Part shown: positions 2,012 through 18,391 of the stretch, one piece after another | How positions within the stretch are numbered: position 1 is the stretch's first letter | How the letters are laid out: each line of letters starts with the position of its first letter | Origin: Fusibacillus kribbianus | Lineage (GTDB): Bacteria > Bacillota > Clostridia > Lachnospirales > Lachnospiraceae | Direction of reading: 5' to 3' | Assembly (NCBI RefSeq): GCF_030053595.1 | Contig: NZ_JASGBQ010000025.1 | Span: forward strand, 1 to 43,879 | Length of the DNA stretch: 43,879 bases | Translations under genes and position numbers: made by a program | The notes under the pieces: model-generated | Database searches by the model: none | Told to the model about the DNA's origin: nothing | What the model saw: the letters and a program-made list of their open reading frames with translations, nothing else

Positions 2012-2588
2012 TTACTTATTTTTACGGATGCGATCTGGCAATGCAGGCGACCATGGTAGCAAGTCTTCCATGAATTTCAGATCATGATCATCCATGTGTT
2101 TTGGAATCTCGCTCAGCAGATGTTCAAAGTACTCATACGGTTTCAGATTATTCGCCTTCGCAGTCTCTGCAATGCTGTAGATGACGGCTGATGCATTAGC
2201 ACCATTGATTGTATCAATCATCTGCCAGTTTTTGCGGCCGACTGTAAAGCCTCGGATCGCACGTTCACTGGCGTTGTTGTCCATCGGCACATCACCGTCA
2301 GTAAGGAACACCTTCAGATATTTTTCCTGATTCAGGGCATAGTTGAACGCTTCACGCATTTTTCCTTTCGCCTGAATCCTTGGTTCATTCTGCTTCAGAT
2401 ATAAGAACAGGGCATCGACCAGCGGTTTGATCACTACCTCGCGTTGTTTCAGCCGTTCTTCGGATGAAAGATTCTTCAGCTTGCCTTCTTCATCATAGAT
2501 TGCCTGAATCTGCTTCATTACCAGATATCCGATCGTATTCTTCTGTTCCTTTTTCGGTATCTGTTCCAGGTGATGTTGTATAAATAAA
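2012..2588 (-). pseudogene. tnpC: IS66 transposase TnpC, C-terminal fragment
   Basis: About 190 codons of the IS66 DDE transposase remain. They include the conserved block with the catalytic glutamate (MDNNASERAIRGFTVGRKNW), followed by the SIAETAKANNL helix and the C-terminal tail typical of the family. A full TnpC is about 500 residues or more, so the first two-thirds, with both catalytic aspartates, are gone. The reading frame runs a few codons into the IS3 end, where an ATG is fortuitous. The fragment is not expected to be active. Confidence 0.9.
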
Positions 2589-2647
2589 GTTGACACCTTA
2601 TTCTCAAAGAATTCATGTATAATAAAGAGAATAAGGAGGAACTCTCA

Positions 2648-2989
2648 ATGTCACGTACCCAACGTAAATACGACCACGAATATAAGGTCCAGGCTGTCAA
2701 ACTTGCCAGAGAAATCGGCGGTGCTAAGGCAGCCAAAGAATTAGGTATTCCAGAAGGAACCATCCATACATGGCTGAAAGCAGTTAGAGCCGGCACATTG
2801 GATATTGGCGACGGTGCACATACTCCAGATAGTGCAATGAGCCTCGCTGAGGAACTTGCTATGCTCCGTAAACGCGTTAAGGATCAGGATAAAGAAATCC
2901 GGCGTCTGAAAGAGGAAAATGAATTTCTCGAGGAAGCAAGTGCTTTTTTCGCAGCCAGCCGTCGGAAGTCAGCAAGAACCAAAGAATGA
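2648..2989 (+). CDS. IS3-family transposase OrfA
   Basis: This encodes the DNA-binding subunit that recognises the element ends. It is 113 residues from the ATG at 2648, chosen because AAGGAGGAA lies 7 bases upstream; the open frame also extends upstream without a ribosome site. The N-terminal half is a Tnp_1-type helix-turn-helix (AKELGIPEGTIHTWLKAV). The C-terminal half is a heptad-rich coiled coil (AMLRKRVKDQDKEIRRLKEE) for multimerisation. It ends FFAASRRKSARTKE and overlaps OrfB by an ATGA. A -1 slippery heptamer near its end could fuse it to OrfB. Confidence 0.9.
   Translation: MSRTQRKYDHEYKVQAVKLAREIGGAKAAKELGIPEGTIHTWLKAVRAGTLDIGDGAHTPDSAMSLAEELAMLRKRVKDQDKEIRRLKEENEFLEEASAFFAASRRKSARTKE
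2944..2950 (+). promoter_or_regulatory. Candidate -1 ribosomal frameshift heptamer T_TTT_TTC
   Basis: In the OrfA frame the codons are GCT TTT TTC, giving a canonical X_XXY_YYZ slippery heptamer. The -1 frame is open from here through the OrfB ATG, so slippage would yield an OrfAB fusion, the active transposase of IS3 elements. IS3 elements often use A6G instead, so the T-type site is inferred. Confidence 0.5.
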
Positions 2990-3894
2990 TGTTCATTGCC
3001 ATAAAAACGGAAGACGGCGCGATTAAGGGAAAACTCTCATTCTATTGCCGGATGCTTGGTGTCAGCCGCCAGGGGTTCTACAAATATCTTGCTCATAAAG
3101 ACCGGCCCTGGAAATATCAGGATCTCGCTGATGCTATAAGAGCAATCCATACGGAGGATGAATACAATGATACCTATGGGCGTATTCGCATGTATCAGGC
3201 ACTTCTCCTTAAGAAACCGGAAGGACTCAAGATTCCTAGTGAGCGAACCGTCTACAGGGTCATGGATGAAATAGGCCTTAGTCATCGACCAAAACGTAAG
3301 CCGAATGGTATTACCAAGGCGGATCGGGAAGCTCGTAAGTCAGATGATCTTCTGAAGCGAGATTTCAAATCCGATAAGCCACTTGAAAAATGTGTAACTG
3401 ACATCACCGAAATCAAGGCTAAAGATGGAAAATTATATGTTTCAGCTATCTTTGACTGCTTTGATTCCAGTGTCCTTGGTCTGGCAATGGAAACCAACAT
3501 GAAAGCAACTTTGTGCGAGCATACCCTGGATAATGCCTATCTGGCATATCCTGATCCGCGAGGGGCTATTGTACACTCTGACAGAGGAACACAATATACC
3601 AGTGAAACCTATCGTAAGGTTCTTGCTAAATACGGTATTATTCAAAGCATGAACAGTGCTGGTGGCAGGTGTCACGATAATGCCCGATGCGAAAGCATGT
3701 GGGCCAGAATGAAAAGCGAGCTTCTCTATGACCGCTACAATACGGAGACTATGACCACAGAGGAACTGAAGGTTCTCATTTGGAGATATTTCATCAGTTA
3801 CTGGAATAACAGGAGGATCTGCTCTGCTAACGGTGGGCTTCCTCCGAGCATCAAGCGCCAGAGATACTATCGATCTTTGGACCTGGCTGCATAG
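2986..3894 (+). CDS. IS3-family transposase OrfB (DDE integrase core)
   Basis: The catalytic subunit of the IS3-family transposase, 302 residues. An HTH_21-like region (residues about 55-105, containing YGRIRMYQAL) precedes an rve integrase core. The triad is visible: D139 in VTDITEIK, D199 in HSDRGTQY and E236 in ARCESMWARMKSE, giving about 59- and 36-residue spacings as expected for DD(35)E enzymes. The stop precedes the right inverted repeat by 10 bases. It starts at the ATGA overlap with OrfA and can be made separately or as an OrfAB fusion. All catalytic residues are present, so the element may still be mobile. Confidence 0.93.
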   Translation: MMFIAIKTEDGAIKGKLSFYCRMLGVSRQGFYKYLAHKDRPWKYQDLADAIRAIHTEDEYNDTYGRIRMYQALLLKKPEGLKIPSERTVYRVMDEIGLSHRPKRKPNGITKADREARKSDDLLKRDFKSDKPLEKCVTDITEIKAKDGKLYVSAIFDCFDSSVLGLAMETNMKATLCEHTLDNAYLAYPDPRGAIVHSDRGTQYTSETYRKVLAKYGIIQSMNSAGGRCHDNARCESMWARMKSELLYDRYNTETMTTEELKVLIWRYFISYWNNRRICSANGGLPPSIKRQRYYRSLDLAA

Positions 3895-3925
3895 TCAGTG
3901 ATATCTTTGAGATAAATGTGTCAAC

Positions 3926-4036
3926 CAATATTGACAATATCAGAATGATGTTTGACAGGCTCTCCAGACCACGACGAAGATCAGAGTATCCGGTAGCTAT
4001 GAAGACTTTTTTAAAGCAGGACGCATTATTCAGCAT
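3926..4036 (-). pseudogene. tnpB: IS66 TnpB, N-terminal fragment
   Basis: Only the first 37 or so codons of the IS66 Orf2 protein remain, with the signature ATGYSDLRRGLESL. The frame then runs into the IS3 right end and continues as unrelated residues. Full TnpB is about 115 residues. The start overlaps the end of tnpA by 11 bases, the coupling usual in IS66 elements. Confidence 0.88.
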
Positions 4037-4412
4037 TGATCAGGCCTCCGACAGCATTGATCAGATCTGGTGATGCAGAATTAGTAAGTCCAATGAGGAG
4101 CCCTTTTGCCTGAATAACTGCATCTGGTTTAAAACCGTTATAAACGGAACCTTCTGATGTATTTTGTTCGAACTTCAACTCCACAAATGGAACGGTTGTG
4201 GGCTGTAGAACTGTCGGAAGTGACGAAGCTTTATCTGCCGGAACAGCTAATGCATAAGCTTCCCGACGAAGGATCTTCTGCCAGTAAAAAAATGCTTTGT
4301 CAGATATCCCGTTTTGCTTACACCAGGCTGTTTTTGACTGCCCGCTCGCAAGACATTCGGAGATGATCTTCGACCATTGTTCGCGACGCATCTGATGAGT
4401 AATCTTTTCCAT
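4026..4412 (-). CDS. tnpA: IS66-family accessory protein TnpA
   Basis: A 128-residue IS66 Orf1 protein, which assists transposition and is thought to bind DNA. The N-terminal 55 residues form the recognisable helix-turn-helix region (QWSKIISECLASGQSKTAWC, then GISDKAFFYWQKILRRE). The C-terminal part has the usual beta-rich segment (TTVPFVELKF) and ends LTNSASPDLINAVGGLIN. A GGGAGG ribosome site precedes the ATG. It is intact, but its partners tnpB and tnpC are broken. Confidence 0.9.
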   Translation of the reverse strand: MEKITHQMRREQWSKIISECLASGQSKTAWCKQNGISDKAFFYWQKILRREAYALAVPADKASSLPTVLQPTTVPFVELKFEQNTSEGSVYNGFKPDAVIQAKGLLIGLTNSASPDLINAVGGLINAE

Positions 4413-4489
4413 TTTTAATATCCTCCCAAAAACTCGTTAGTTTTTTAGAGAGATTATCCCAGAAAATGGAAGTTGAAACTAGACACGTA

Positions 4490-4504
4490 CTATGGAGCGT
4501 TTAC
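4490..4504 (-). repeat. IS66 terminal inverted repeat, right
   Basis: Reverse complement of 1948-1962 without mismatch. It marks the tnpA-proximal end of the element. Confidence 0.85.
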
Positions 4505-4652
4505 ATCGGAATGATCAGACTCCTTAACATGTTTGAAACAGAGCAAGAGATCTGCTCCTATTTGCATTATATATTATCATTTCCTACAGGTATATGTTCT
4601 GAGTGTGTTTCAGTGCGGCACATTCCAAGGTCATTCTTCGGTTGGAAGCTTT

Positions 4653-4772
4653 TTATGTTTTTGCGAGTTTGCGGATGGTCTTTCCATAATCCTTCACAAT
4701 AAGCTTTACAACCTTATCCATTTCGACCTTTTCAGACTTTGGCATTTTTTTCTTTAATTCTTCGGCTGTCAT
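4653..4772 (-). CDS. Small 39-residue lysine-rich protein, unknown
   Basis: An ATG at 4772 opens 39 codons ending KLAKT-stop. The product starts MTAEELKKKMPKSEKVEMDK and continues VVKLIVKDYGKTIRKLAKT. It is charged, predicted helical and cysteine-free. It begins 23 bases after the tandem-HTH gene in the same direction. An extended -10-like TGGTATAAT lies just before the ATG, and an AGAGGA is 15-20 bases upstream, so both the translation signal and the start are uncertain. I do not recognise a family. It could be a small accessory protein or the tail of a degraded gene. Confidence 0.45.
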   Translation of the reverse strand: MTAEELKKKMPKSEKVEMDKVVKLIVKDYGKTIRKLAKT

Positions 4773-4795
4773 GGCTTAATTATACCATATCCTCT

Positions 4796-5311
4796 TTATT
4801 TCTTCGGATACTCCCAGCTCTTCCGGATATATATTCCGTTCTCTTTGAGGACTTTGCGGATGGTATCTCCGCCAATCCCCACGATGGCTCCAACTTCTTT
4901 TGGGGTCTTCATTTCGGCATATAGCTCAATAATCTTTTTGACCAGTTCTGGTTTTGTGGTGGCCTGATGGGATACTTCGACTCCATTGCGCTTCAGAGTG
5001 TCGCTGATAGTTCTGCGGTGGCAGCCGAATTCCTTGGCTAGTTCGTAGCTTGAGGCGCCATTCTTATATCTTTCGCAAATAGTTTGAATTTCTAATTCAG
5101 AGAGATTTTTCTGTTGCTGAGTGATGGTTTTTACTGTAGAATTTGGGGCGTAGGATAAATCTGTGATTGATGGATCTATGGTCGGCTTTACAGCATTGAG
5201 TTCGGATTCTGTGCGTTTTATTCCAGAAAAAAACGCCGTGAATGGGGCGGTGTTCACAAGCCAGATTTTCAGTCCGTGCACGATGAAAGGCTCTCTGCAA
5301 TCCCTTTTCAT
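4796..5311 (-). CDS. Tandem helix-turn-helix protein, possible recombinase remnant
   Basis: A 171-residue open frame with two helix-turn-helix modules. The first spans about residues 70-113 (SSYELAKEFGCHRRTISDTL, a resolvase/Hin-like recognition pattern). The second spans about 121-163 (TPKEVGAIVGIGGDTIRKVL). The first 65 residues (GLKIWLVNTAPFTAFF and a polar linker) match no domain I know and may be the tail of a truncated protein. No serine-recombinase catalytic domain is present. It lies at the edge of the accessory region and points away from gatC, as expected if it is the C-terminal remnant of an integrated element's recombinase. A small DNA-binding regulator is the alternative. Confidence 0.55.
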   Translation of the reverse strand: MKRDCREPFIVHGLKIWLVNTAPFTAFFSGIKRTESELNAVKPTIDPSITDLSYAPNSTVKTITQQQKNLSELEIQTICERYKNGASSYELAKEFGCHRRTISDTLKRNGVEVSHQATTKPELVKKIIELYAEMKTPKEVGAIVGIGGDTIRKVLKENGIYIRKSWEYPKK

Positions 5312-5479
5312 CCGTCAAGCTACTTGCGTTCTTTTATAAAGTATTATAAAATAAAAAATGAAAGAAAATTTTGCGAAATCAGGCTGCAAACAGTCGATTT
5401 CGAAATATTGGGGAACTGTCTTTTGTTCCGTCAGGGAAAAAGGCAGCTCCTTTTTTATCAATGGGAGGGAAACGAAGGG

Positions 5480-5761
5480 ATGGATCAGGAAGCATTAAAA
5501 CGATTGGAAAGACTCAATAAGCTTCGGCTTACGGAGGAAGAAACTGCAGCGATGCTGGATTATTTTCAGATGCAGCGCAGGGAACTGGAAAGTCTCCATG
5601 CAGTCAACACAGAACAGGTAGAGCGCATGGTGCACGTTATGCCTATGACCAATATTATCAGAGAAGACAAGGCCAGCCAGCCATTTACCCGTGAGGAGCT
5701 TCAGGAGGGAGCTCCGGAGTCGTATGACGGATACTGGCAGGTGCCCCGTCTTGTGGATTAA
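5480..5761 (+). CDS. gatC: Glu/Asp-tRNA amidotransferase subunit C
   Basis: GatC is the small clamp that holds GatA and GatB together in the enzyme converting Glu-tRNA(Gln) and Asp-tRNA(Asn) to Gln- and Asn-tRNA. At 93 residues it has normal length. The family signature is present: KLRLTEEE near the start, VNTEQVERMVHVMPMTNIIREDKA in the middle, and APESYDGYWQVPRLVD at the end. The ATG at 5480 is chosen because GAAGGG precedes it and family members begin here, although the frame is open further upstream. Its stop overlaps the first possible start of the next gene (TAATG), so translation is probably coupled. Confidence 0.9.
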   Translation: MDQEALKRLERLNKLRLTEEETAAMLDYFQMQRRELESLHAVNTEQVERMVHVMPMTNIIREDKASQPFTREELQEGAPESYDGYWQVPRLVD

Positions 5762-5772
5762 TGGAGGAAAGG

Positions 5773-6981
5773 ATGACGACGATGAAAGTATATATCAGTG
5801 AAGCACAGGCGACCGAAAACAAAGTGGCGCTGGATGATATGATCCTGACAACGAAGCTGCCCACAACTGCAGGCTCCAGAATGCTGGATGACTACAGAAG
5901 TCTGTTTGATGCAGAGGTGGTGACGCGGCTTGAGACAGCAGGTTATGAAATTGCAGGAAAGGTGAATGTGGGAGAGTTTGCCATTGATCTGTTGGGGGAG
6001 ACCTCATATTATGGTCCATGTGAAAAGGATGGGCTTCTGACCGGCGCAGCTGCCGAGCTTCTGGAAAGGGATGAAGTAAAGGCTGTGGTCAGTCTGGATG
6101 TAAATGGAGCGCCAAGGAGAACAGCGGCTCTTGCAGGCCTTATCTGTATCAAACCTACCTACGGAACAGTCTCCAGGTATGGAACCATTCCGGCAGCCTG
6201 TTCTGGTGAAACCATCTGCGTAACAGCAGGAAATGCAGAGACCTGCCGCGAGATCCTTTCGGTGATCGTAGGGCATGACTGCAAGGATGGCACGAGTCTT
6301 CCGGAGGATGCGTGCGAACGTCTGAAGACAGAGGCGGAAAGAACGCCGGTGAAGAAGATCGCAGTTGCCAAAGCCATGGAAGCAGCTGCCGATGAGGCGG
6401 TCAGAGAGAAGATAGAACAGTTGAAAACCAGGGCGGCAAAATGCGGCATTGAGGTGATCGAGATTGAAGCAGAAGAACTTCTTTTGGCAAAGCCGGCGTG
6501 GAATATTCTGATGTCCGCTGAGGTGTGCAATAATGTATCCCGGTATGACGGCATCAAGTTTGGATATCGTACTCCCCATTATGAGGATATCGATGAGCTT
6601 TATACCAACAGCAGAACGGAGGCTTTTGGATTTCTCCTGAAATCAACCGTATTGTTCGGCTCGGATGTATTGTCTACGGATAATTACTGGAAAGCATATG
6701 ACAAATCCCTGCGGATCCGCCGGGTACTCAGTGAATACCTGAACCGGATATTCGGTGAAGTGGATGCCATTGTGCTTCCGGCATGCGGGAAAGAAGCCTA
6801 TAGCGGAGAGATGGTGAAAGAAAATCCGTACATCGCTTATGATGAGAGTCTCTTCACGGCTCCCTCCTCCATTACCGGATATCCTGCGCTGGTTACAGAA
6901 GGGGTTCAGTTGATGGGAAACATGTTCTCGGAAAACAGCCTTCTTGATCTGGCACTTATGTTTGAAAAGGAGGGGAAATGA
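5773..6981 (+). CDS. GatA homologue lacking the amidase catalytic triad
   Basis: By position and C-terminal sequence this is the GatA subunit (NNVSRYDGIKFGYRTPHYED, TRTEAFGF-like, FTAPSSITGYPALV). It is 402 residues from the ATG at 5773 (GGAGG 5 bases upstream; 5761 also possible), against about 485 normally. GatA makes ammonia from glutamine with a Lys/cis-Ser/Ser triad. Here the IKDN lysine is D21 (ALDDM), the GGSSGGS loop is LLTGAAAE (L89/T90 replace the cis-Ser), and TGGSIRQPA has become VNGAPRRTA, with A113 in place of the nucleophile. The N-terminal helices are also shortened. The frame is open, so this is not a decayed pseudogene. It is probably a structural or regulatory GatA paralogue. 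A normal gatA may exist elsewhere. Confidence 0.85.
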   Translation: MTTMKVYISEAQATENKVALDDMILTTKLPTTAGSRMLDDYRSLFDAEVVTRLETAGYEIAGKVNVGEFAIDLLGETSYYGPCEKDGLLTGAAAELLERDEVKAVVSLDVNGAPRRTAALAGLICIKPTYGTVSRYGTIPAACSGETICVTAGNAETCREILSVIVGHDCKDGTSLPEDACERLKTEAERTPVKKIAVAKAMEAAADEAVREKIEQLKTRAAKCGIEVIEIEAEELLLAKPAWNILMSAEVCNNVSRYDGIKFGYRTPHYEDIDELYTNSRTEAFGFLLKSTVLFGSDVLSTDNYWKAYDKSLRIRRVLSEYLNRIFGEVDAIVLPACGKEAYSGEMVKENPYIAYDESLFTAPSSITGYPALVTEGVQLMGNMFSENSLLDLALMFEKEGK

Positions 6982-6983
6982 TC

Positions 6984-8420
6984 ATGAAATATGAAACTGT
7001 CATCGGACTGGAGGTTCATGTAGAACTTGCCACCGAATCAAAAATATTCTGCTCCTGTTCTGCAAAATTCGGCGCAGAACAGAATGAGCATGTATGCCCT
7101 GCCTGCTGCGGCATGCCCGGGATGCTCCCCGTTGTGAATAAAAGAGTTGTGGATCTTGGCATGACAGCAGGGATGATGTTGAATTGTGACATCAATCGCG
7201 TGACCACCTTTGACAAAAAGAGCTACTATTATCCGGATCTTCCCGCCTCCTATCAGACGACCCAGTGGTTTGCTCCCATTTGCGTCAACGGAACGGTGGA
7301 TATCAGGACTTCTGCAGGAGAGAAGAAGATAAGGATCAAGCAGATTCATATGGAAGAGGATGCCGGCAAGCTGGTCCATGATGACTGGACCGACACTTCT
7401 CTGGTGGATTTCAACAGGACAAGTGTACCGCTGATCGAGATTGTAAGCCAGCCGGATCTTTCCAGTGCTGAGGAGGTTCTTGCTTATCTGGAACGTCTGA
7501 GGGATCTGCTCCGCTTTGCAAAGGTTTCAGACTGCCGGTGGGAGCAGGGCTCCATGAGATGTGATGTCAATCTTTCTGTCCGCCCGGAAGGCAGCGATGT
7601 GCTGGGAGTAAGGACAGAGATGAAAAATATGAATTCTCTGTCTGCCATTGAACGCGCAATTGAATATGAAACGGCAAGGCATATCGATGCCATTGAGCGC
7701 GGAATCGGAGAGCTGGTGCAGGAGACCCGTCGCTGGGATGATATCAAAGGGAAGAGTTATTCCATGAGAAATAAGGAAACGGCGGGAGATTACCGGTATT
7801 TCCCTGACCCTAATATTATGCCGGTCGTGATCGACGATGACTGGTACGACAGGATCCGCGCGTCACTTCCCGATTTCCCTGAGGTGAAGAAGGCCCGTTA
7901 TATGGAGGAACTGGGACTGAGCGAGTATGATGCAGACCAGCTGATCCAGAGTAGGGCATTCTGTGATGTGTTTGAAGCTGCATATGCAGAATGCGGCATG
8001 GCAAAGGAAGCAGCCAACTGGCTGATTTCTGACTGTGCTTCGGTGCTGAATAAGAATCAGCAGACCTTTGACATGCTGAACATAAACGGGAAAGCTCTCG
8101 GACAGCTGATCAGGCTGGTGGCAGAAGAGAAGGTGAGCCGGGGCAATGCAAAGCGCATTCTGGCGGAAATGTTCAAAAAGGATATCGATCCGGAGGAATT
8201 TGCAAAGGCTAACGGCTTGATCCTTTCCAATGATACTGGTGCCATTGAAGCTGTGGTAAAAAATGTGATCGTTTCCGATCCGAAATCCGTTGCTGATTAT
8301 AAAGGCGGTAAGGAAAAAGCGCTGATGGCTCTCTTCGGAAAATGTATGAAGGAGCTGAAAGGAAACTGCAACCCTCAGGTGCTGAGAGAGTTATTGATCA
8401 AAGCGATCAATGAAGAATAG
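6984..8420 (+). CDS. gatB: Glu/Asp-tRNA amidotransferase subunit B
   Basis: GatB binds the misacylated tRNA, phosphorylates its side chain and accepts ammonia. The 478-residue protein is full length. Visible landmarks are ETVIGLEVHVEL at the N-terminus, the zinc cysteines (CSC and CPAC, residues about 25-45), YYPDLPASYQ, HMEEDAGK, NRTSVPLIEIVS, MRCDVNLSVRPEG and DYRYFPDPN. A helical plus YqeY-like tail follows (residues about 290-478). It overlaps the GatA-like gene by a few bases. I place the start at 6984 because GatB proteins begin MKYETVIG; 6978 (MIMKYE) is also possible with the same AGGAGGGG site. Its active-site motifs look functional, which makes the inactive partner more notable. Confidence 0.92.
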   Translation: MKYETVIGLEVHVELATESKIFCSCSAKFGAEQNEHVCPACCGMPGMLPVVNKRVVDLGMTAGMMLNCDINRVTTFDKKSYYYPDLPASYQTTQWFAPICVNGTVDIRTSAGEKKIRIKQIHMEEDAGKLVHDDWTDTSLVDFNRTSVPLIEIVSQPDLSSAEEVLAYLERLRDLLRFAKVSDCRWEQGSMRCDVNLSVRPEGSDVLGVRTEMKNMNSLSAIERAIEYETARHIDAIERGIGELVQETRRWDDIKGKSYSMRNKETAGDYRYFPDPNIMPVVIDDDWYDRIRASLPDFPEVKKARYMEELGLSEYDADQLIQSRAFCDVFEAAYAECGMAKEAANWLISDCASVLNKNQQTFDMLNINGKALGQLIRLVAEEKVSRGNAKRILAEMFKKDIDPEEFAKANGLILSNDTGAIEAVVKNVIVSDPKSVADYKGGKEKALMALFGKCMKELKGNCNPQVLRELLIKAINEE

Positions 8421-8434
8421 AAAAATAGGAAAAC

Positions 8435-8459
8435 AGGCTGATCCGGCGGTAGAATACCG
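8435..8459 (+). terminator. Hairpin after gatB, first copy of a duplicated unit
   Basis: CCGGCGGTA and TACCGCCGG pair across GAA, with the stem running to about 8463. No strong T tract follows. The 25-base unit recurs at 8499-8523 with two mismatches. Confidence 0.55.
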
Positions 8460-8498
8460 CCGGATTGGTTCGTTAAGTACCATCTGGAATGAGAGTAT

Positions 8499-8529
8499 AG
8501 GCTGATCCAGCGGTACAATACCGTTTTTT
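8499..8529 (+). terminator. Terminator of the gatCAB operon, second copy
   Basis: CGGTA CAA TACCG is followed directly by six T residues, giving a classical terminator. It is a diverged copy of the upstream hairpin, 64 bp away. It also lies just past the 3' end of the convergent XRE gene. Confidence 0.75.
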
Positions 8530-8541
8530 CAGGCATATTTA

Positions 8542-8889
8542 TTATCTGGTTGAATCACGCTCAATGCGGCAGAGCTCCCGGATCTTTTCAGCATAGGAAA
8601 GAAGGCGTTTTCTGTCTGCAGCATCAAGCTCATGGTATATGGAAAGCAGCGTAGTTTCCTCTTCTGATTTGTTTTTCCAGCCGAGAAGATCATCCGGAGG
8701 AATCGAAAGGGAAGCGGCGATGGCTTTCAATTTATCCAGCGGAATGTTGGTAATCATGTCGTTTTCATATTTATATATGGTTTGTTTGGTCGATCCGATT
8801 TTTTCTGCCAGCGCAGACTGGGAAAGACCGGAAGCCTTTCGGGCGGATCGGATCCTGGCCCCTGTGGTTTGCGTTTGTTCTGTATTCAT
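8542..8889 (-). CDS. XRE-family (Cro/CI-like) transcriptional regulator
   Basis: A 115-residue DNA-binding regulator. The HTH_3 domain spans residues about 11-68 (ARIRSARKASGLSQSALAEK, then IGSTKQTIYKYENDMITNIP). A charged helical tail (TLLSIYHELDAADRKRLLSY) may dimerise. It is divergent from recA. Its own promoter (TTGACT, 17 bp, TATAAT on the minus strand) is overlapped by repeats of AAAAGTATCTTGA, so it very likely represses itself. A second promoter facing recA shares the same operator, implying that it also affects recA transcription. No ligand or protease domain is visible, so the inducing signal is unknown. Confidence 0.88.
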   Translation of the reverse strand: MNTEQTQTTGARIRSARKASGLSQSALAEKIGSTKQTIYKYENDMITNIPLDKLKAIAASLSIPPDDLLGWKNKSEEETTLLSIYHELDAADRKRLLSYAEKIRELCRIERDSTR

Positions 8890-18152: not shown

Positions 18153-18170
18153 TAGTATGTGCAATGAATG

Positions 18171-18337
18171 CCGTATCAAGTGCCTGCCCATGGCGAGAAG
18201 AGGGAATCAGGTGAGAATCCTGAGCGATCCGGTCACTGTATTCAGGGAGCACCGTCTCAAAATCCATTGCAAACCCTATCATGCGAGAAGGAGAGACGGA
18301 GGCGTTGAACTGTAAGTCAGGAAACCTGCTTGGTATG
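18171..18337 (+). ncRNA. Cobalamin (AdoCbl) riboswitch
   Basis: The conserved cobalamin aptamer blocks occur in order: GAGGGAATCAGGTGAGAATC (18199-18218), CACTGTATTCAGGGAGCACC (18234-18253), CCATTGC, GAGAAGGAGAGACGGAGGCG, and the B12 box AAGTCAGGAAACCTGCTT (18314-18331). TATCAAG (18174-18180) pairs with CTTGGTA (18329-18335) to close P1. The aptamer therefore looks complete. A terminator hairpin follows at 18392. No cobalamin synthesis, transport or B12-dependent enzyme gene lies downstream; the next gene is galE. Confidence 0.92.
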
Positions 18338-18391
18338 TGAGATGGGCTTCCGTGAAAAGCTTTACATCCAACAGAGGAGTTCCTCTGAGGT

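Follow-up and report, generated by a model that had tools for sequence, protein, structure and literature searches.

The window, a 43,879-nucleotide stretch of DNA that makes up contig C18 of a 2.9-Mb, 48-contig genome rated 100% complete, carries an operon in which the gene between gatC and gatB encodes a GatA homologue without the amidase triad, here called GatA*. We think it probable, at about two chances in three, that GatC, GatA* and GatB* form a working Asp-tRNA(Asn) amidotransferase that has no glutaminase of its own and that would take ammonia either free or as made elsewhere. The evidence consists of the loss of the triad, the catalytic residues of GatB*, the gene order, the missing amidase and AsnRS matches in many carrier genomes and some T-boxes with an Asn specifier. 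If GatA* belongs to a conserved glutaminase-less family in genomes with no other route to Asn-tRNA(Asn) found, the complex would be a tRNA amidotransferase that depends on ammonia by nature.

The GatA homologue and its lost amidase site

All three frames of the operon are open and lie on the plus strand. gatC* (5480 to 5761) encodes 93 amino acids from a start at the position equivalent to that of its relatives; scores of 42.8 bits against Pfam GatC and 66.6 bits against NCBIfam gatC (cut-off, 47.1) were computed on the longer open reading frame from 5276 to 5761. The gatA* frame runs from 5761 to 6981 (406 amino acids), and the ATG at 5773 is its likely start, a reasonable choice because GGAGG lies five bases upstream; the product scored 165 bits against Pfam Amidase. 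gatB*, encoding the kinase/transamidase subunit with intact ATP and Mg residues, occupies 6984 to 8420 in a frame open from 6978. The stop of gatC* shares one base with the ATG at 5761, and that of gatA* overlaps the ATG at 6978 (ATGA). GatC, GatB_N and GatB_Yqey in the flanking genes were all above their Pfam cut-offs, gatC* and gatB* pass the NCBIfam cut-offs too, and the adjoining gatC, gatA-type and gatB genes make up a GatCAB gene set. The open reading frame and domain searches thus confirm an earlier note on this DNA, which had placed an open GatA homologue at 5773 to 6981 between gatC and gatB with coupled starts. Scans of 4400 to 8700 gave 7 promoter-like sites (5.0 expected) and 5 terminator-like sites (4.2 expected) and were uninformative.

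We aligned the window GatA* with 20 canonical GatAs, all of which retain every motif, and with 18 GatA* relatives. Against the canonical proteins, the triad Lys is replaced by D21 (codon 5833 to 5835, plus strand, counted like those that follow from the ATG at 5773), the cis-Ser, which we take to be the first Ser of GGSSGGS, by L89, and the nucleophilic Ser by A113 (codon 6109 to 6111, plus strand); L89 and T90 (codons 6037 to 6042, plus strand) align with the Ser pair of GGSSGGS. The Asp that binds the glutamine amide is Ser, the Arg of RSEGFG is retained, a seven-residue gap precedes the Ser loop, and the N terminus is about 60 residues shorter. GGS is absent from the whole translation. Both the triad loss at D21, L89/T90 and A113 and the shorter N terminus had been noticed earlier, and both stood up in this alignment. 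The roles of the triad and glutamine-binding residues follow the accessible text of PMC4027206 and were mapped here by motif.

The same pattern runs through the family. We compared 19 GatA* copies (from 16 genomes and three MAG contigs, with the copy in genome G994 outside the count). The triad Lys column holds Asp in 18 and Glu in 1, the cis-Ser column is Leu in all 19, and the column of the glutamine-amide Asp is Ser, Asn or Gly in all 19, so that none of the three residues expected of a GatA equivalog occurs in any copy (0/19 each). The nucleophile column varies (Ala in 9, Ser in 6, Thr in 3 and Phe in 1), and the glutamine-binding Arg is kept in 19/19. The window protein scored 253 bits against NCBIfam gatA (TIGR00132), and the four copies scanned gave 253 to 277 bits, all below the cut-off of 481. 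Judged by its triad, its glutamine site and the model cut-off, GatA* is not a GatA equivalog. Its near full-length match to solved GatAs nevertheless points to the amidase signature fold: phmmer aligned residues 22 to 402 with them at a best E of 1.7e-49 for the single sequence, and a profile search gave 1.4e-80. An AlphaFold2 model built from a 4-row alignment had a pLDDT of 41.8, too low for use.

A sequencing or assembly error that hides the motifs has practically no chance of being the explanation, since 18 relatives are without the same Lys, cis-Ser and Asp, which are thus missing from 19/19 sequences in separate assemblies, and we rejected it. We also rejected a pseudogene: dN/dS was 0.126 for the only GatA* pair of 171 with dS below 1 (the other 13 pairs printed gave 0.15 to 0.46 at dS above 1, where the ratio is less reliable), and the Lys, cis-Ser and Asp positions are altered in 19/19 copies. 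The earlier note had framed the protein in terms of loss. The triad is indeed lost, but mere loss does not describe the data, which are those of a conserved, remodelled family. A tree of the 19 GatA* and 20 canonical sequences split the two sets on one branch with 100/100 support, subject to a long-branch warning.

At 34 columns, at least 18 of the 19 GatA* copies share a residue found in at most 2 of the 20 canonical GatAs, and the window protein agrees with the family at 33 of them. Seven singled out from these columns, D72, N111, R116, W243, C252, N253 and E358, occur in 19/19 GatA* and 0/20 canonical sequences; they presumably lie in or near the old GatA pocket, a location based partly on known GatA structures. 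They could form a new catalytic centre, which is one point against our main reading: GatA* would then still be an amidase with its pocket rebuilt on these residues, perhaps with Cys252 as the nucleophile or with another amide donor, for example, asparagine. The sharp division of the seven residues between the two sets is a pattern of rebuilding rather than drift, and the retained glutamine-binding Arg fits it as well. However, Cys252 stands in place of a conserved Ser other than the nucleophile, the placement in the pocket is presumptive, and no enzyme of the amidase-signature group is known to function when the Lys is missing. We therefore regard a rebuilt amidase as unlikely and prefer a glutaminase-less amidotransferase.

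GatB* looks active by its residues. In the 17 copies picked, which did not include those of loci L008 and L059, the ATP and Mg residues are kept throughout, except that Ser155 is Thr in 12, as it is in the yeast enzyme; residue roles were mapped by motif from the accessible part of PMC4027206. The same text reports that yeast GatFAB transamidates in vitro with NH4Cl in place of Gln and that one truncated form uses NH4Cl better than the full enzyme does, so a GatB that is supplied with ammonia in some other way is chemically plausible. In the mechanism that we propose, AspRS would mischarge tRNA(Asn) with Asp, and GatB* would phosphorylate the Asp side chain with ATP and then amidate it. GatA* would make no ammonia from Gln; retained and remodelled, it would serve a structural role, holding GatB* and probably shaping the entry of ammonia, which would come from solution or from another enzyme. 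An asparaginase encoded beside the operon, where present, may supply both Asp and NH3. The activity, the ammonia source, the tRNA specificity and the extension of this role to the window copy are what we infer from the sequences.

Carrier genomes and the window genome

A contig scan with the window protein found three relatives of 53 to 60% identity, on two Oscillospiraceae MAG contigs and one from Coriobacteriales; in each of them, gatC and gatB accompany a GatA that likewise has no triad. A profile of four GatA* sequences, used at a cut-off of E 1e-90 at which weaker members would be missed, found carriers among 4 of 299 family genomes and 13 of 391 class genomes, with the window genome counted in both samples. 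A wider profile gave 25 matches in a phylum sample of 398 genomes, of which two, at 637 and 556 bits, were counted as GatA*; the remaining 23, set aside by score and frame size rather than individually read, reached at most 296 bits in frames of 468 to 514 amino acids, the size of canonical GatA. GatA* was thus found in 16 genomes across the family and class samples, in one phylum-sample genome (G994) and on the three MAG contigs, and because carriers are few in all three samples, the family is rare and patchy. A search of a plasmid collection matched 340 records, none of which reached 60% identity; the best 20 of the 340 were at 33.7% or less. We found no amidase-dead GatA family in the literature as represented by titles and abstract openings, mostly without subscription papers.

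The strongest evidence for our reading, as far as sequences can provide it, is genome content, which we compared between the 16 carriers and 24 noncarriers picked from earlier lists. Outside the window's family, each of the 12 carriers has GatA* as its sole PF01425 protein. These genomes are 65 to 96% complete, and the product of (1 − completeness) over the 12, a measure of all of them missing an intact gatA by chance, is 1e-11 if they are independent and completeness is taken at face value; for the six that are at least 90% complete it is 1e-7. AsnRS over the cut-off was absent from 11 of the 12, the exception being G551, versus 9 of the 24 noncarriers (Fisher p 0.0035). All 24 genomes without AsnRS have GatB, and all 8 without GatB have AsnRS. 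Two sub-threshold AsnRS-like matches, in G350 and G013, were individually identified, and each passes the NF003483 cut-off as an aspartate--tRNA(Asn) ligase. From the amidase counts, we rejected for the family the idea that GatA* is only a spare copy, although it is possible for the window genome.

GlnRS was over the cut-off in 12 of the 16 carriers, so the need would be mainly for Asn. A role in Gln-tRNA is nevertheless left open by three of the 12 GatA*-only genomes in which no GlnRS was found (G476, G551 and G567) and by a fourth, G426, in which it is a truncated piece.

GatA* is not the only GatA in every carrier. The four in the window's family (G000, G013, G221 and G237) also have an intact GatA, with no AsnRS over the cut-off in any of them, and in G994 the order gatC*-gatA*-gatB* is followed directly by a canonical gatC-gatA-gatB (locus L112, 4577 to 10970). 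Because G994 and G551 have AsnRS and G994 has a canonical gatCAB (and GlnRS besides), GatCA*B* is not always the sole route. The canonical genes in these five genomes would suit a regulatory or tRNA-binding pseudo-subunit that tunes canonical GatCAB and carries out no transamidation with GatB*. That role is very improbable, however, in view of the 12/12 carriers outside the window's family in which no canonical GatA was matched and GatB is encoded once (in G426, as two contig pieces). The complex, as its sequences present it, probably works like GatCAB, fed with ammonia from outside.

The window genome is a different case. Its three Pfam Amidase matches are two pieces of GatA* and one intact GatA on contig C23, where gatC, gatA and gatB lie together with GGSSGGS and DTGGSIRQP intact. 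GlnRS is present and no AsnRS over the cut-off was found in this genome; tRNA(Asn) can thus be served by the canonical GatCAB. The earlier note had offered three readings of the altered GatA, namely, a second complete gatA elsewhere, the use of free ammonia and a new role. The search of the genome verified the first. The use of free ammonia is the best supported of the three, by the 12/12 carriers without another amidase match, the 11/12 without AsnRS, the GatB* residues, aspS and the Asn T-boxes, but this support comes from the relatives and not from the window. For the third, a role such as tRNA binding or regulation, the analysis gave no support.

The window operon has no adjoining aspS, no Rfam T-box and no asparaginase gene beside it; two aspS genes and an asparaginase of the high-scoring type all lie on contigs other than C18. 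Its neighbours differ from those in G237, the nearest relative here, which suggests that the operon was horizontally acquired. It could then be an acquired copy that is redundant or silent and is being lost, a possibility that we find doubtful but worth weighing, and one compatible with the explanation we favour for the family. The intact gatCAB on C23, the occurrence of GatA* in only 4 of 299 family genomes at E 1e-90, the unlike neighbours, the missing T-box and transposon remains 1 to 3.5 kb upstream would all fit such decay. On the other side stand the three open frames, the agreement with the family at 33 of the 34 columns and the divergence from G237, with a dN of 0.07 and a dS of 2.3 for GatB* and a dN of 0.21 and a saturated dS for GatA*. 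With its frames open and the family residues in place, the window copy is probably functional, but our claim is weaker for it than for the family.

The region from 2012 to 4412 of the window is probably one transposable element inside another. It includes the C-terminal part of an IS66 transposase (2012 to 2596, minus strand) and, adjoining this remnant, a pair of integrase-core transposase genes (2615 to 3894), presumably of the IS3 type. A DNA polymerase IV-type gene of the IMS family (215 to 1461) is split by a frameshift or an assembly error into two overlapping frames, one with the IMS and thumb domains (215 to 1078) and one with IMS_C (1060 to 1461). A cobalamin riboswitch lies at 18161 to 18347 (94.5 bits).

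Operon layout and comparison with known systems

The order of genes in the operons suggests the purpose of the complex. aspS is present in the operons of all 12 carriers outside the family and is usually fused to gatC. In type 2 (13 genomes), aspS stands just before gatA*-gatB* or, in G395, just before gatC. An AspRS-GatC fusion, for which Pfam was run on two loci, was seen in 12 of the 13 type-2 loci (one a contig-end fragment); aspS and gatC are separate in G395 and also in G583, on another branch, which has an unfused aspS-gatC-gatA*-gatB*. gatC* has no neighbouring aspS in the window, L007, L008, L009, G237 and G994. AspRS with a C-terminal GatC is already an annotated kind (NCBIfam NF009460), but the L055 fusion scored 451 bits against a cut-off of 1379, and its partner is GatA*.

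We scanned 18 operons for T-boxes, with L064 and L112 outside the scan. Rfam T-boxes above the gathering score were found upstream of three, L066, L007 and L009, all with a specifier read as AAC (Asn), and none at the window, L008 or L069; this amounts to 3 of 6 type-1 loci versus 0 of 12 type-2 loci. A T-box antiterminator core nevertheless precedes aspS in 11 of the 12 type-2 leaders inspected (L058 is the exception), and GGGAAC is kept before the closing stem in 10 aligned type-2 leaders, from which that of L055, with no recognisable stem I, was excluded. One type-2 leader scored 39.1 bits (E 2.7e-7) at a laxer threshold, versus a gathering score of 93. By these features the type-2 leaders are T-box-like variants and not accepted Rfam members. 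Ten of them, upstream of aspS-gatC in L056, L057, L059 to L063, L065, L067 and L068, have a variant stem I and are possibly an undescribed T-box subclass. An older T-box survey, in its accessible part, reports no T-boxes before amidotransferase genes (PMC2494555), in contrast to those seen here before GatA* operons.

The GatA here is amidase-dead, whereas that of the Clostridium acetobutylicum transamidation operon is reportedly canonical. The two systems would be alike in control of the transamidation genes by a T-box for tRNA(Asn) where such a T-box lies upstream, as at L066, L007 and L009; the C. acetobutylicum operon is described as under a tRNA(Asn)-sensing T-box in the accessible text of a review (PMC4052509; Saad et al. 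2012, 2013).

Eight of the type-2 loci read have a PF00710-type asparaginase gene next to the operon (Pfam was run on four); in G426 the gene is on the same contig as gatB*, and in G567 it is beside an aspS on a different contig from the operon, giving linkage in 10 of 13 type-2 genomes (9 without G567). It is on other contigs in G221 and G432, and none was found in G551. In archaeal GatDE, a GatB-type kinase works with an asparaginase-type ammonia maker, and the asparaginase beside the type-2 operon L062 has archaeal GatD as its best PDB match (E 2e-17, with the alignment beginning at GatD residue 89). Against the GatD cut-offs of 310 and 324, however, the L062 asparaginase scored 103 and 96 bits and that of L055 scored 81 and 78 bits; both scored best as type I asparaginase, also below the cut-off. 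The asparaginase alignment was built from motif-picked sequences, L067 (1 of 19) not among them, and so is no test of the motifs. The systems differ further in that the asparaginase here is a separate gene, one that does not adjoin the window operon, and in that GatC and GatA* are retained.

Of the 40 genomes compared, 24 have no AsnRS, and 20 of these carry a divergent, low-scoring asparaginase (65 to 111 bits), which occurs in 0 of the 16 that have AsnRS (Fisher 1.5e-7). Seven of the 20 are noncarriers with an intact GatA, and their asparaginase is on a contig other than that of gatA, so this asparaginase belongs to tRNA-dependent Asn synthesis generally. The idea of a GatD-like partner is weakened by the same unlinked type in these 7 noncarriers. 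Linkage to the operon was 10/13 versus 0/7 (p 0.003, or 0.005 without G567); contig breaks could bias these statistics, and related genomes are not independent. The association is suggestive but ambiguous, and the asparaginase could feed Asp, NH3 or both. A more tentative extension of our reading is a glutaminase-free transamidosome composed of AspRS-GatC, GatA* as an ammonia/ammonium entry module, GatB* and an asparaginase that makes Asp and NH3 from Asn. If this were true, imported asparagine would reach Asn codons without AsnRS, and the complex would be the bacterial equivalent of archaeal GatDE, having evolved independently of it.

In the usual view, the core of bacterial GatCAB is the GatA glutaminase together with the ammonia channel. 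The complex described here resembles canonical GatCAB in its three subunits, its C-A-B order, the catalytic residues of GatB and, by sequence, the GatA fold, and differs from it in a GatA* without the triad, Ser loop and glutamine-amide Asp and with a shorter N terminus. With GatA*, one can test whether GatB requires a channelled donor and what use an amidase scaffold has without its chemistry. NAD synthetases offer a parallel as synthetases used with or without a glutaminase, although they are unrelated enzymes that involve no tRNA and their glutaminase domain is absent rather than dead. They exist in ammonia- and glutamine-dependent kinds, according to the accessible text of PMC3376133. Pathway models of gut genomes, as described in the part of PMC9026213 available, treat GatABC as sufficient for Asn; for GatA* genomes, the amide donor in such models would need rethinking.

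A few further genes and RNAs accompany the operons. In L057, L061, L062 and L067, an AlaX-like gene with tRNA_SAD and DHHA1 domains, identified by a domain scan in L062 and by inspection in the others, comes after the operon or after its asparaginase gene. Both Oscillospiraceae MAGs have an M14-type carboxypeptidase gene downstream of the operon (L007, 10878 to 12575, on which Pfam was run; L009, 10478 to 12175). Just 3′ of gatB* in G551, a Gut-1 RNA (RF01706) lies at 7465 to 7541 of L063.
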